DNA of 21,918 bases from a virus: positions 1-21,918 of IMG/VR virus record IMGVR_UViG_3300020558_000039; one strand, written 5' to 3'. The notes under the pieces are model-generated. The model was given only the letters and a program-made list of their open reading frames with translations, made no database searches and was not told the origin of the DNA. Below, piece after piece: positions 12,260 to 19,001 of this stretch (position 1 is its first letter; each line of letters begins with the position of its first letter). A program made the position numbers and the translations under genes.

Positions 12260-12304
12260 TAATTCTCCCACATACTTGACTTTATTGGGAGAATTAGACA
12301 TAGT
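12260..12304 (+). promoter_or_regulatory. 11-bp inverted repeat overlapping a candidate promoter
   Basis: TAATTCTCCCA (12260-12270) and TGGGAGAATTA (12286-12296) are perfect reverse complements around a 15-base centre. TTGACT at 12276-12281 lies in the loop, with CATAGT 17 bases later (four of six -10 bases). This could be an operator-controlled promoter for the hairpin-rich gene, or an intrinsic terminator lacking a T-run for the preceding gene. Confidence 0.45.
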
Positions 12305-12340: not shown

Positions 12341-13609
12341 ATGAAATCTCAAATTACTCTCGCAGACATCCCCTTTGACCAAGAAGACGGAGGTCTGTTG
12401 TTTGAAACCCGCGTAATCGCGGTACAAGGGGGGTGTTTTTGGTACGATGACGGGTTTGAACCCCGCCTCGTCCCTTTGCCCACTGCCAGTTGGGCAGTGG
12501 TTCCTGTTACGCCAGAAATGGCTCAAACATACGGCGATTACGCTGGTTTATATTTGCCAAACGAGGAAATGACTACAGACGGAAGTCTGTGGGCAAATGC
12601 TTGGGGAATTGATTTTAGTTCCCTAGCTTACTCAGTAGGCTTTGGAGATGATGAAATCAACCAGATAATTAATGATTATCTGGACTCTTTAGAAGCTTCT
12701 AAAGAGTCTTCTAAAAAGGCGAAAGAGGCAAAACAAGCCGAAAAAGAAAAAGCGGCAACAGCAAAACAAGCTGAAGAGGCGCGGGAAAAAGAATGGAATA
12801 GCTACCTGTCAATCAAAGACAGGTTAAAAAAACACAACCTTTATGAAAATAGCGATTACTATGTCGTGACACACGGCATAGTAATCGATGAAAAAACTGA
12901 AAAGTTTTATTCCGAAGGATCAGATACTCTATCATCTGACGGAATGGGATCTCGATCCCATGGCGGTTATGTGACCGTTCGGGTCGTAACCTATCAGCTT
13001 CCCAGTGGGGAAGCCAAACAATTAACCAACCCTCCAAAACCCAGATCGGAAAAAGACTGGGTGTTAAACCACAACTCTGGTTACTGGACTAGAAAAAAAT
13101 GGGATATAGAAAATCCTAAAGTAGAAGCGGTTTCCGAACCCGAACCTGCTCCTATTTCAGCAAATCAAAAATTGATTGAAGATTTTGGGGTGGGATTCCC
13201 CCAACTTGTCGAAGAATCCCTATCTTTAGGGATTCAAATAAGGCTTACAAGTGGCGAAGAAAGACGGGTAGTAGTCCGTAGCCGCGATTTAAGGAATGGT
13301 TACGAATCCTTTCCGAAGGATGCTACCGAACTGCATCAAGCAGTAATCGAAGCCATAGCCTTTAAGTCTCGCAAAAACGAGCTAGAAGCCTTAAAAAGGG
13401 CTGAAGAAGAGCAGATTACTGCTCAACAGAAGGAATCCCAACTTCCTTATAAGACAGCCTGCGAAAAGGCGGGGTACAAAGTGGAGTGGAATCAGGATTC
13501 CTACCTTGCTAAGGTCGGTAAAAGATGGACAGATTGCCGGACTGTCTGCCGGCAAAAAAACCTGCCAGTTGAGTTTAACAAAAAGCCTAAACTCATTCTC
13601 AAAAAATAG
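12341..13609 (+). CDS. Hypothetical coiled-coil protein (422 aa) encoded by an unusually hairpin-dense gene
   Basis: 422 residues, no recognised family. Residues 1-110 form an alpha/beta N-terminal region with aromatic segments (GCFWYDDGFEPRL; YAGLYLPNEE). Residues ~115-160 are a Lys/Glu/Ala coiled coil. Residues 175-225 are beta-like (YYVVTHGIVID, YVTVRVVTYQL). Residues 270-345 and 345-422 include a second short coil and a basic C-terminus ending in KKPKLILKK. An AAGGA site precedes the ATG. The striking property is in the DNA: about 25 short hairpins, almost non-overlapping, occupy the coding sequence outside the coiled coil (see the separate entry). The frame is open throughout, so the hairpins have not broken the gene. 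Function is unknown. Confidence 0.75.
   Translation: MKSQITLADIPFDQEDGGLLFETRVIAVQGGCFWYDDGFEPRLVPLPTASWAVVPVTPEMAQTYGDYAGLYLPNEEMTTDGSLWANAWGIDFSSLAYSVGFGDDEINQIINDYLDSLEASKESSKKAKEAKQAEKEKAATAKQAEEAREKEWNSYLSIKDRLKKHNLYENSDYYVVTHGIVIDEKTEKFYSEGSDTLSSDGMGSRSHGGYVTVRVVTYQLPSGEAKQLTNPPKPRSEKDWVLNHNSGYWTRKKWDIENPKVEAVSEPEPAPISANQKLIEDFGVGFPQLVEESLSLGIQIRLTSGEERRVVVRSRDLRNGYESFPKDATELHQAVIEAIAFKSRKNELEALKRAEEEQITAQQKESQLPYKTACEKAGYKVEWNQDSYLAKVGKRWTDCRTVCRQKNLPVEFNKKPKLILKK
12409..13595 (+). other. Series of about 25 intragenic hairpins
   Basis: Perfect stems visible by eye include: 8 bp (12480-12500), 6 bp with GGAA loop (12575-12590), 9 bp (12661-12683), a 26-base perfect palindrome (12683-12708), 7 bp (12804-12824), 16 pairs including one T-G pair with an ACA loop (12853-12887), 6 bp with GAAA loop (12893-12908), 7 bp with CTCG loop (12944-12961), 7 bp with AGTG loop (12997-13014), 6 bp (13039-13062), 4 bp with TCCG loop (13129-13140), 6 bp (13185-13204), 9 bp with TCTT loop (13214-13235), 6 bp with TCCG loop (13306-13321), 6 bp (13409-13424), 6 bp (13430-13448), 7 bp (13534-13555) and 8 bp (13570-13595). 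The coiled-coil part (12709-12803) has none. Confidence 0.75.
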
Positions 13610-13641
13610 CATCAGTTGTCAGTTATCAGTTGTCAGTAAAA
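13610..13641. repeat. TGTCAG/TTATCAG tandem leader repeat
   Basis: Four units of the (A)GTTRTCAG type follow the hairpin-rich gene and precede the 73-aa gene; the same order of TGTCAG and TTATCAG units is seen at 11459-11490. Confidence 0.8.
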
Positions 13642-15219: not shown

Positions 15220-15603
15220 ATGGAAGAATATATGGAAGAAATCGAAGAAACAATCGAAGAAGAAATTGAAGAATGTATGACTCCAAGCCATCGTCATTTT
15301 TGGCTTTGCTGGTATCAATTATCTCTTCTAGAGAAAAAGATCTGTTTTTATTTTCTTTGTGGGTTTGATAACAAAGAAATTGCTAAAAAACTTTTACTAA
15401 AAACTGAAATAGTAAATAATTATACGACGACAATTTTAAAAAAATTTAATATTTCGACTCAACCTAAGTTTATGTTCTTTTTCTATCAGCATACGGGATG
15501 GGATATAGCCAAAGATATGATTGACGATGACGAAGAAGAGCAATGCGCTTTATGGGGTGTTCAAAAATGTCTAATTCCGCCTGGAATATGGAAAAATATG
15601 TAG
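15220..15603 (+). CDS. LuxR/GerE-type helix-turn-helix protein with acidic N-terminus
   Basis: 127 residues from the ATG at 15220. An upstream in-frame ATG at 15205 lies inside the previous gene, whereas GAGGAG at 15207-15212 is ideally placed for 15220, so I chose the latter. The first ~22 residues are almost all Glu plus Met/Ile/Thr (a highly acidic helix). LSLLEKKICFYFLCGFDNKEIAKKLLLKTEIVNNYTTTILKKFNIS is a LuxR-type HTH (L-x-x-x-E/K-x-x-I-x-x-x-x-x-G-x-x-N-K-E-I-A-x-x-L...V-x-N/x-x...I-x-x-K). No receiver or autoinducer domain is present. It overlaps no gene but is coupled to the oxygenase-like gene, and is followed after 14 bases by the HigA-like gene. Confidence 0.8.
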   Translation: MEEYMEEIEETIEEEIEECMTPSHRHFWLCWYQLSLLEKKICFYFLCGFDNKEIAKKLLLKTEIVNNYTTTILKKFNISTQPKFMFFFYQHTGWDIAKDMIDDDEEEQCALWGVQKCLIPPGIWKNM

Positions 15604-15617
15604 TTTAACGAAAATCT

Positions 15618-15896
15618 ATGACTAATACTACCGAGAACACATACACACCAGATTTTGTTTCTCCACCAGGAGAAACCCTTGCTGAAATCCTAAAAGAAAG
15701 AAAAATACCCCGACGAGTATTTGCTAGTCGCATGAAGTTGCCGAAAAAGACTATTAATCAACTCATAAAAGGTAAGGCAGAAATTACTGTTTGTATTGCT
15801 TATAAAATGGAATTAGCTTTAGGCGTACCTTCTGCTCGTTTCTGGATAGAGCGTGAAAGACTTTATCGAGAATTTCTAGTAAATCAAATTGATTAG
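15618..15896 (+). CDS. higA: HigA/VapI-type XRE antitoxin-like protein
   Basis: 92 residues that match the HigA/VapI family end to end: PGETLAEILKERKIPRRVFASRMKLPKKTINQLIKGKAEITVCIAYKMELALGVPSARFWIERERLYREF. The P-G-E-x-L-x-E-x-L motif, the helix-turn-helix and the P-S/A-x-F-W-x-x-x-x-x-x-Y segment are all characteristic. In toxin-antitoxin pairs HigA binds HigB and represses the operon. No HigB-type RelE-fold toxin lies on either side: the upstream gene is a LuxR-type protein and the downstream one an unrelated 58-aa protein. So this is an orphan that may act as a regulator or counteract a host toxin. Confidence 0.88.
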   Translation: MTNTTENTYTPDFVSPPGETLAEILKERKIPRRVFASRMKLPKKTINQLIKGKAEITVCIAYKMELALGVPSARFWIERERLYREFLVNQID

Positions 15897-15925
15897 AATA
15901 TTTTTACAACTATTAACGAGGATTT

Positions 15926-16102
15926 ATGAATCTGTACTTAATTAGAGATTCAGTTACATCATTTGGTCTTCTTATTGCATCAGAATCAGAAACAGAGGCT
16001 ATCTGGCATTGGTGCAGCTATTTTGATGGCAATAACGACAATCCAATCGAAATAGAGCGTATTAACATTAATACTTCTGGTATCGTTTGGGAATGTGGAT
16101 AA
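15926..16102 (+). CDS. Hypothetical 58-aa protein
   Basis: A 58-codon frame with a good GAGG site 5-8 bases before the ATG. The protein reads NLYLIRDSVTSFGLLIASESETEAIWHW ... DNPIEIERINI and ends in VWECG. It is similar in layout to small cyanobacterial proteins of the 'YLIRD...ASSEEEA' kind, with an N-terminal strand and a helix starting at SETEAI, but I cannot name a family. It is the last plus-strand gene before the terminase and converges on it with a 7-base gap. It could be the partner of the HigA-like protein only by position; no RelE-type motif is present. Confidence 0.6.
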   Translation: MNLYLIRDSVTSFGLLIASESETEAIWHWCSYFDGNNDNPIEIERININTSGIVWECG

Positions 16103-16109
16103 ACTACTA

Positions 16110-19001
16110 CTAACCCCTAAAACCGCTCCTAAACCGATTAACAGGAGCAGAAGTAATAATCGTGCTAATAACCTTTTCATGTCCCTGAAACTCATTTTCA
16201 AGGGAATAAAATGCTCCCGATAGGCTATCTACAATGTCATTAGTCGGAGGTGTTTTCTTGCTACCATCAAAACCCTGGCAGGCATTTAAGAACCGAGTGT
16301 TCCATGTCCCATCTCTTAAGATAAAGATTTGTCCCCGACTAGCTGCCGTGGCTACTGGTAAAGCTCGTGTTAGCTTATCCCCTTGAGGTGCTATCGCTCT
16401 AATATCATGATTCGGATGATTTTCTCTAATTACATTAGTAATGGTATTTTCAACAAATTTACCGCTCGATCCCCCTTCTTGTTCCCATCTTACAGCTACA
16501 GTTTTCCCATCCAGTTCAGCAGTATTTTTAAGCATTAATTCCACTTCCCCGACCTTTTTCTGCTCACAGATATTATCGGCAATCACATAAGCAAATTCCT
16601 TAATCTCAGTTGAATCTGGCAGTGTGTTTTTAATTCTTTGGTATTTATAGACAAGAGTGCCACTTGTATAACAATGATAGTTCTCAGCATTCTCTTTAGC
16701 AGTTGCCGCTAAATCCCAGAATCTTACTTTACCTATTAACTTCCAATCATCGGGTATTTTATCGAGAATCTCAAACCAAGTCCGATCAAATACCGTACCA
16801 GCTTCATATTTAACTTTCCAGTTACCCCTGAGAAGTCTTTCCCGCTCAATAGGATGTAAAGCGTAAAGGTTAGCCAAATAGGTAGGGTTAACCCTAATTA
16901 AAGCTGGATTATCAAAAATCGTAGCAGGAATAAAAGTAAAGCTTTTAATCAGATTATCTGGTGTAATATTAATATCTGTATTTGATAAAAACTTTTCTCT
17001 TTTATCTTTAGGAATAAGGTCAAAAAGTTCATCTTTAAGACTAAATTTATCGATTAGTTCTTCTTTAGTATCAGCCCAGTGGATTATGTTTTCTCGTCTA
17101 ATAAAATATTTAACTATTCCCCCTCTTTCTTCAATAGCATACCCAGTCTTAGGGTCGATCCACCAAGAGATAAAATTAGCTACCCAAGAGTCAGCATCGG
17201 GGTTACAGGTTGCTCTAACTGCGGGTTTAATTCCCGATACTGAACGGTTTCTAGAGAGAAGATAGAAAAATTGTTCTTCTGTAAAATGGGTTAATTCATC
17301 AAAACCTATCCTTGCAATTTGTCCCCCTTGATAAACATAGACAGTTTTTTCGTATTGTAAATGTCTAAAAGATATTTTCGATCCAAATGGAAATCGCCAC
17401 CCTGGAGGCTTTTCAATAAAATTACCTTTCACTGCTTGATAGATTTTTTGGCTTTCATCTATTAGTCCACCTGCTTGAGTAAATTCAGGATACGTCCGAC
17501 GAAATATAACAGCCCGATAGTCAGGATTGCTAATAAATTCTTGACGGGCAAAATCAATTAATAGCCCGGCACTATTATGCGTAACTATATAATCATCTGT
17601 TAAATAAAGATGATTTGGATTGCTAACAGTAATACAACGAGCGTAATCAATTTCAGTTGGTTCAATAGAAACAATTCTTTTACCCGGCCAACTTGATCCC
17701 CCATTAAATTGTCCAAGCATTTTCGCTCTTTCAACTTTACGCGGCAAACTAAAAAGTAATTCAAGGTGATTTCCCTCAACAGCCACGACGTAAGCTGTAC
17801 GACCATCTAAATGCTTCCCTTTGTATCTATATTTTGGTTGTCTTTTCGTAATCTTAGCCATATAACCCAAAGAACGAACCAAAGAAGCTACCTGAATAGC
17901 CAAATCTTTACTGGTTGTGCAATAGGAAACTTCTCTTTTTTTGTCTCCAACAGTTCCATCTGTATCAAAAAGACCTTGAGCAAACGCATAACGAAAATCA
18001 AGAGATGCTGATAAATAGCCGTCGGGAAATACTTTTTCCCACGCTCTTTTTCCTTTATATTCATTGTTGCTTATCCAAGACTTAACCCATTGAACTTTTG
18101 TCGCGTTGACGGATAAAACTTCTAAACGGTTATCTTTTATTGGTGTTCGTGTTTTAACGGTAGCTTCTTTCCCTAAAATATCAACGAGTTTATCAGCAAT
18201 AAATCTATCAGAAGTTGTTACGATAATTGAATCACTACAATAAGAACCATCGCCTATTAAACAACCGTAAAAATAGGCTCTGCCAGTATCAGACCTGTTA
18301 AGTGCCGTAAATTGCAATGGCGCGTTAACTGGAACAATAAACCGTCTTCCTTTGCTAATCTCAGTAATCAACCAATTAGTATCCCTAACCCTTGCTCTTG
18401 TAATGTAATTAGTATTCCATCCTCTAGGTGTCAGATTCGACTCAATTCGATTAATCCCGTTACTAGACTTCCTGCGGCTATTACGGCGAGATTCCCAAAA
18501 AGACCATAAATGATCGCCACAGCATTCTGTACTTGTACTGTCTTCAAAAGAAACCCGATAAAATTGCTTGAATCCCTGTTCGTGAATTTGGATGATTTCT
18601 TGATACTGACCATCAGGATTCATAATCTTATCCCCGACTTTAAGATCAGAGAAGTCGATCCATTGACCGCTCCATCCCAAGACCTTTGAATCTTTCATTT
18701 GTGATTCATTAAAACTACTATTATATGATAATAGTCTTTTTCCTAAAAGCGCATCCGCCATAGAAAGCATTTTATCTCGAATCGCTTTTCCTGTCTTGGA
18801 TGCACGCCCTGCTTTTCCACTTCCTGCGCCTCCGCCATAGAAGATTACATCAGCGTCAATTTCCCCAAATAAAGCTTGTTTTCCCTCTTGTAATTGAGGA
18901 AAAACAATTTCTTCTTTGGTGTTAACAAGTCGATATTTTTCGGTCGCTGTTTTTATCTTTGAGAGATTTTTTAATGATAATTTACTCGCTTTCATCGTCA
19001 T
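16110..19001 (-). CDS. terL: Terminase large subunit (ATPase and nuclease) containing an intein
   Basis: Motor protein that cuts and translocates DNA into the capsid. The ATPase P-loop GGGAGSGK (56-63) is interrupted directly after Lys63 by a 413-residue intein (64-476); Ser477 resumes the Walker A motif. Walker B is RIGFDE (D568, E569), the coupling motif is RATCNPD (596-602), and the C-terminal RNase H-like nuclease shows D763 (FWDLA), an acidic VRWEQE region (838-842) and D922/D925 (NDIVDSL). The spliced product is 550 residues, a normal length for a phage TerL. The start overlaps the upstream small-subunit gene by 20 bases. Splicing should be required for ATPase activity, since the insert splits the phosphate-binding loop. 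Confidence 0.96.
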   Translation of the reverse strand: MTMKASKLSLKNLSKIKTATEKYRLVNTKEEIVFPQLQEGKQALFGEIDADVIFYGGGAGSGKAGRASKTGKAIRDKMLSMADALLGKRLLSYNSSFNESQMKDSKVLGWSGQWIDFSDLKVGDKIMNPDGQYQEIIQIHEQGFKQFYRVSFEDSTSTECCGDHLWSFWESRRNSRRKSSNGINRIESNLTPRGWNTNYITRARVRDTNWLITEISKGRRFIVPVNAPLQFTALNRSDTGRAYFYGCLIGDGSYCSDSIIVTTSDRFIADKLVDILGKEATVKTRTPIKDNRLEVLSVNATKVQWVKSWISNNEYKGKRAWEKVFPDGYLSASLDFRYAFAQGLFDTDGTVGDKKREVSYCTTSKDLAIQVASLVRSLGYMAKITKRQPKYRYKGKHLDGRTAYVVAVEGNHLELLFSLPRKVERAKMLGQFNGGSSWPGKRIVSIEPTEIDYARCITVSNPNHLYLTDDYIVTHNSAGLLIDFARQEFISNPDYRAVIFRRTYPEFTQAGGLIDESQKIYQAVKGNFIEKPPGWRFPFGSKISFRHLQYEKTVYVYQGGQIARIGFDELTHFTEEQFFYLLSRNRSVSGIKPAVRATCNPDADSWVANFISWWIDPKTGYAIEERGGIVKYFIRRENIIHWADTKEELIDKFSLKDELFDLIPKDKREKFLSNTDINITPDNLIKSFTFIPATIFDNPALIRVNPTYLANLYALHPIERERLLRGNWKVKYEAGTVFDRTWFEILDKIPDDWKLIGKVRFWDLAATAKENAENYHCYTSGTLVYKYQRIKNTLPDSTEIKEFAYVIADNICEQKKVGEVELMLKNTAELDGKTVAVRWEQEGGSSGKFVENTITNVIRENHPNHDIRAIAPQGDKLTRALPVATAASRGQIFILRDGTWNTRFLNACQGFDGSKKTPPTNDIVDSLSGAFYSLENEFQGHEKVISTIITSAPVNRFRSGFRG
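17574..18812 (-). other. Intein with LAGLIDADG endonuclease, class 3-like (Trp-Cys-Thr), inside terL Walker A
   Basis: In-frame intein of 413 residues ending in YIVTHN, followed by Ser477. The first residue is Ala, not Cys or Ser. Instead, the class 3 signature is present: H164-L-W166 in block B (CGDHLW), C456 in block F (ARCITV) and T474 just before the penultimate His475 in block G. LKVGDKIMNPDG is the block A/B beta strand region. Two LAGLIDADG motifs (YGCLIGDGSY ~245-254; AFAQGLFDTDGTV ~339-351) mark a homing endonuclease domain between the splicing halves. Inteins of class 3 are known from phages and phage-derived genes. The N-terminal segment before LKVGD is longer than usual, with GRASKTGKAIRDKM. 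Confidence 0.9.

Follow-up and report, generated by a model that had tools for sequence, protein, structure and literature searches.

The window, the whole stretch of DNA analysed here (21,918 nucleotides), is a 21.9-kb virus record that encodes both subunits of a ribonucleotide reductase, a C5 cytosine methylase and, on the minus strand (16110-19001), a 963-aa terminase large subunit. The terminase contains LAGLIDADG_3 and Hom_end domains, and its insert is probably an intein. The host is likely to be a cyanobacterium: at the nucleotide level, the window's only matches to named phages are short Microcystis phage segments, and the closest named terminase to its own, at 42% identity, belongs to Aphanizomenon phage CL131. 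The 84-kb relative carries an IS605 OrfB/Cas12f-like (TnpB-type) ORF (L028, 11112-12992, minus strand) and a gene that fuses thymidylate synthase and PterinBD-DUF4346 domains (L026, 14108-15646, minus strand). Our analysis concerns one gene of the window, its upstream palindrome and the hairpins inside it:

12260-12296, plus strand: promoter-like palindrome TTCTCCCA-N15-TGGGAGAA, with TTGAC (-35-like) in the loop
12341-13609, plus strand: hairpin-saturated reading frame of 422 aa, without a family match and under purifying selection
12409-12422, plus strand: 5-bp hairpin CCGCG(TAAT)CGCGG; half of the sequences (7 of 14) have it, and it is broken in the others
12480-12500, plus strand: 8-bp hairpin, perfected in the window only
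12575-12590, plus strand: 6-bp hairpin with a GGAA loop; 11 bp in L005
12661-12683, plus strand: 9-bp hairpin; the loop TAATG (12670-12674) is CATTA (inverted) in L005, L011, L013 and L014
12683-12708, plus strand: 26-nt perfect palindrome; AA at 12701-12702 is TT (inverted) in L013/L014
12804-12824, plus strand: 7-bp hairpin
12853-12887, plus strand: 16-pair hairpin; two-sided change from C-G to T-A in five relatives and from G-C to A-T in L012
12893-12908, plus strand: 6-bp hairpin with a GAAA loop; two pairs altered on both sides in seven relatives
12920-12939, plus strand: 6-bp hairpin
12944-12961, plus strand: 8-bp hairpin; the loop TC (12952-12953) is GA (inverted) in L006, L007, L011 and L014
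12997-13014, plus strand: 7-bp hairpin; the loop AGTG (13004-13007) is CACT in L013, not in its close relative L014
13185-13204, plus strand: 6-bp hairpin; all sequences keep the stem and the loop varies
13214-13235, plus strand: 9-bp hairpin
13306-13321, plus strand: 6-bp hairpin with a TCCG loop
13409-13424, plus strand: 6-bp hairpin, invariant in 15 of 15 sequences
13430-13448, plus strand: 6-bp hairpin; the internal deletion of L016 has its right junction at the right arm
13534-13555, plus strand: 7-bp hairpin
13570-13595, plus strand: 8-bp hairpin

The product of the hairpin gene matches no Pfam, PHROG or NCBIfam family, and its AlphaFold model is poor (mean pLDDT 44), with only the last ~45 residues confident. 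Comparison with homologues gave dN/dS values of 0.21-0.39; the protein is therefore made and constrained by purifying selection. The promoter-like module recurs before several unrelated genes in relatives, for instance at 2596, 11580, 12354, 13459, 15302 and 16134 of G005 (L037), and probably marks a phage regulon with one operator. A degenerate short repeat, TCAGTTGTCAGTTATCAGTTGTCAGT, follows the hairpin gene (13610-13640) ahead of the next one, and similar TGATAACTGATAACT strings are found near the palindromic promoter in relatives.

The original prediction described this frame as packed with about 25 hairpins. Every element that it named was located, including the 26-base palindrome, the hairpin of 16 pairs (one of them T.G) around an ACA loop, the two 9-bp stems and the 7-8-bp stems at 12480, 12804, 12944, 12997, 13534 and 13570; in total we count about 24 stems of at least 5 bp. 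Counting perfect stems with loops of 3-12 nt against 100 shuffles preserving both the protein and its codon usage, we found 18 stems of at least 6 bp (3.35 expected), 8 of at least 7 bp (0.60) and 5 of at least 8 bp (0.15), and at each threshold 0 of 100 shuffles reached the observed number. By the same kind of shuffling, no other ORF in the window shows a comparable excess. The downstream 73-aa gene, described earlier as nearly stem-free, is ordinary (1 stem versus 0.71 in shuffles). The coiled-coil region indeed lacks stems in the window, but in relatives it holds a stem of 7-10 bp, and the 8-nt loop of this stem has opposite orientations in L009 and L010; the absence is not a family property. 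GGAA, GAAA and TCCG loops are present as claimed; TCCG, however, is the loop of a listed stem once rather than twice, and since its closing pair is T-A, the argument from stable UNCG loops is weak.

A scan of viral contigs yielded 15 loci, 13 of them with the full-length gene (82-94% protein identity). All 13 full-length homologues are hairpin-rich. More distant homologues were found neither in annotated phages (tblastn) nor in plasmids (nucleotide search) nor in genome contigs. In fragments of related phages of up to 90 kb, the hairpin gene ranks first among the ORFs wherever an intact copy is present, above a whole-genome background excess of roughly 2-fold for stems of at least 7 bp and 3-fold for those of at least 8 bp. 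The gene immediately upstream is also enriched in relatives (G002 43433-43735, G003 15593-15967, G008 1884-2255). Stretches of T4, CL131 and MaMV-DL01 contain nothing similar, as even their most enriched ORFs hold at most a handful of such stems. Since only the two ends of the gene are left in L016, with a frameshift and most of the gene deleted, it appears to be dispensable in that lineage, unless the L016 record is misassembled.

Comparison of the homologues revealed how the hairpins differ. Between phages, several loops are exact reverse complements of each other although they sit between unchanged arms: TAATG/CATTA, TC/GA, AGTG/CACT, AA/TT, GAG/CTC and, over 8 nt, CCAGCAAT/ATTGCTGG. AGCC/GGCT has the same inverted form; here the palindromic AGCT of other relatives could yield both by point changes. 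Inverted loops between intact arms of 7-13 bp occur at seven or more sites in the hairpin gene, and in the close relatives L013 and L014 loop flips make up 3 of the 13 clusters of differences. Across all related contigs, 22 inversion sites have arms of at least 5 bp, compared with 1 in a reversal control; a complement control is not independent, as it overlaps with inversions at symmetric loops such as AA/TT. The homologues recombine and look mosaic, and these counts are not counts of independent events on a tree. Outside the gene, a terminator-like hairpin in G001 near 25256 (L026), ACCCCTGTAG(TCT)CTACAGGGGTTTTT, has the inverted loop AGA in relatives. Loop inversion affects 19 of 231 hairpin sites in the present family, 2 of 100 in T4-like phages and 1 of 51 in Microcystis phages, the present family being more diverged than the other two sets.

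Stems have also been lengthened in single lineages, to 11 bp in L005, 13 bp in L013/L014 and 8 bp in the window. In the last case (12480-12500), two changes gave GTGG where relatives have GAGA, replacing Glu-Ile by Val-Val and extending the stem from 5 to 8 bp. Imperfect repeats were turned perfect in a single lineage (arm homogenization) in L005, L013/L014 and the window; in L005 a second stem of 10 bp shares an arm with the 11-bp stem. Among 736 clusters of directed changes in the gene, 33 contain a 10-nt segment with its reverse complement within 50 nt (controls: 1 reversed, 0 complement, 0.75 distant). The second suggestion of the original prediction, that template-switch repair has been perfecting quasi-palindromes, is borne out by these sources, by the stem-extending clusters and by the inverted loops with intact arms.

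Changes on both sides of a stem are more frequent than in controls, with 16 cells versus 6.1 after shuffling and 1-4 after sliding, and 16 pairs with two Watson-Crick types versus 2-6 after sliding. The hairpin at 12944-12961 has one such change, in L009, and in that at 12853-12887 the T.G pair is mended to C-G in L006/L011. Covariation, the compensating change that the original prediction proposed to look for, was found in 8 pairs (4.2 shuffled, 1-3 slid). This signal could reflect an mRNA selected for strong structure, for stability, ribosome pacing or as a nuclease decoy, with stems kept by compensating changes; the strong folding energy of the whole gene (z = -11.2 sense, -7.2 antisense), the several stems that are invariant among relatives and the slightly lower number of synonymous changes in stems point the same way. 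However, covariation above controls is also expected from template switching, and wobble pairs are not preferred. In stems of at least 6 bp, 59 variable pairs are G.T and 59 are A.C (34 and 27 in stems of at least 8 bp). Selection for RNA folding would favour G.T, which is a wobble pair in mRNA, over A.C, which does not pair, so the equal numbers do not favour it. The antisense strand folds nearly as well: over 100-nt windows in the 13 homologues, the gain over synonymous shuffles is about equal for both strands, with sense marginally ahead in 10 of 13 (related) homologues. The reduction in synonymous variation is small and mostly not significant, being clearest at the stems of L012, the most distant homologue. 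Many stems are broken in relatives, loops invert freely, most of the gene has been lost in L016, and no Rfam match was found up to E = 1. The earlier suggestion of a separate role for the mRNA is thus not supported, and we regard selection for mRNA structure as unlikely. Wobble parity, strand symmetry and the pattern of synonymous variation fit DNA-level copying between arms.

The strand symmetry and the absent wobble preference would equally suit hairpins kept for a role in DNA; as cruciforms or in single-stranded form, they might bind a nuclease, resolvase or packaging protein or distract it. The hairpin sequences are, however, all different, their position and length vary among relatives, and most of the gene is missing from the L016 record, which makes such a role quite improbable. 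Most of the loop inversions alter amino acids (AGTG/CACT, for instance, exchanges SG for HW), and L013 and L014, although closely related, carry different alleles, so the array might be adaptive, with micro-inversions and arm copying diversifying the encoded protein. Against this, dN/dS is in the purifying range, the TC/GA inversion is silent, inversions are also found in intergenic and terminator-like hairpins, and no partner enzyme was seen; we therefore give adaptive diversification very little weight. A related proposal, in which the phage retains a set of small invertible hairpins here in order to vary an accessory protein, each flip or arm copy making a new allele, seems to us very unlikely. 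Finally, many hairpins within a single reading frame could be inserted palindromic elements accumulated in the gene, like Rickettsia palindromic elements or REPs. Each hairpin has its own sequence, so there is no repeat family or consensus, and stems in relatives arise by substitution rather than insertion; this origin is hardly credible.

We consider it probable that template-switch (quasi-palindrome) mutation acts on the DNA of the hairpin gene and has in it an extreme hotspot. During replication, a strand would fold back or jump at a short inverted repeat, copy one arm from the other and then return. Imperfect repeats would thereby be perfected, stems lengthened and changes carried from arm to arm, and the loop would sometimes be flipped. 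Stems would be kept by repeated switching, not by selection, and existing hairpins may seed new ones nearby, since the 11- and 10-bp stems of L005 share an arm. The agent would be phage or host replication. Weak selection could be an alternative source of the two-sided changes and the slightly lower synonymous variation in stems.

A mutational process that acts everywhere does not alone account for a hotspot in which one gene is affected several times as strongly as the remaining genome. Relaxed protein constraint was rejected as the sole cause: with a dN/dS near 0.3, the gene is only a little less constrained than some neighbours that have no hairpins. The shared palindromic promoter was also discarded, other genes behind it being only mildly enriched, as was a phage-specific process, loop inversions being found in T4-like and Microcystis phages too. 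High transcription or a replication pause over the gene could be responsible.

The hairpin loops of chloroplast DNA undergo minute inversions in which the loop is flipped between conserved arms, as here; those are mostly non-coding and scattered, whereas in the present gene they are dense and coding. Abraham and Hazkani-Covo (2021; PMC8604942) published arm homogenization and spacer inversion as signs of template switching in coding DNA of Saccharomyces cerevisiae, accompanied as here by clustered amino-acid changes; the yeast cases are single events across 39 genes, whereas here a single phage gene has at least seven sites. Template switches also create and maintain hairpins in RNA genes, where single events yield several two-sided changes, loops that are inverted and stems that are newly perfect, in resemblance to our observations (Monttinen and Loytynoja, 2022; PMC8794818); in those genes selection on structure acts as well, whereas here a protein gene lacks a signal of RNA selection. 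Perfect inverted repeats in protein genes under purifying selection are likewise known from Nematomorpha, although these are mitochondrial repeats of an animal and far longer (up to 284 bp; PMC6649704) than the 5-16 bp of the viral stems. Given the published footprint and the loop inversions at other sites of these phages as well as in T4-like ones, the process itself is already known. Such a density in one gene is undescribed as far as we searched, in open-access literature only, where absence is weak evidence.

Two-sided stem changes are usually taken as proof of functional RNA; here they occur in a protein gene without RNA-type wobble tolerance. The hairpin gene is thus a cautionary example from nature and a compact system in which to test template switching in viruses, and it makes testable what concentrates template switching in one gene.
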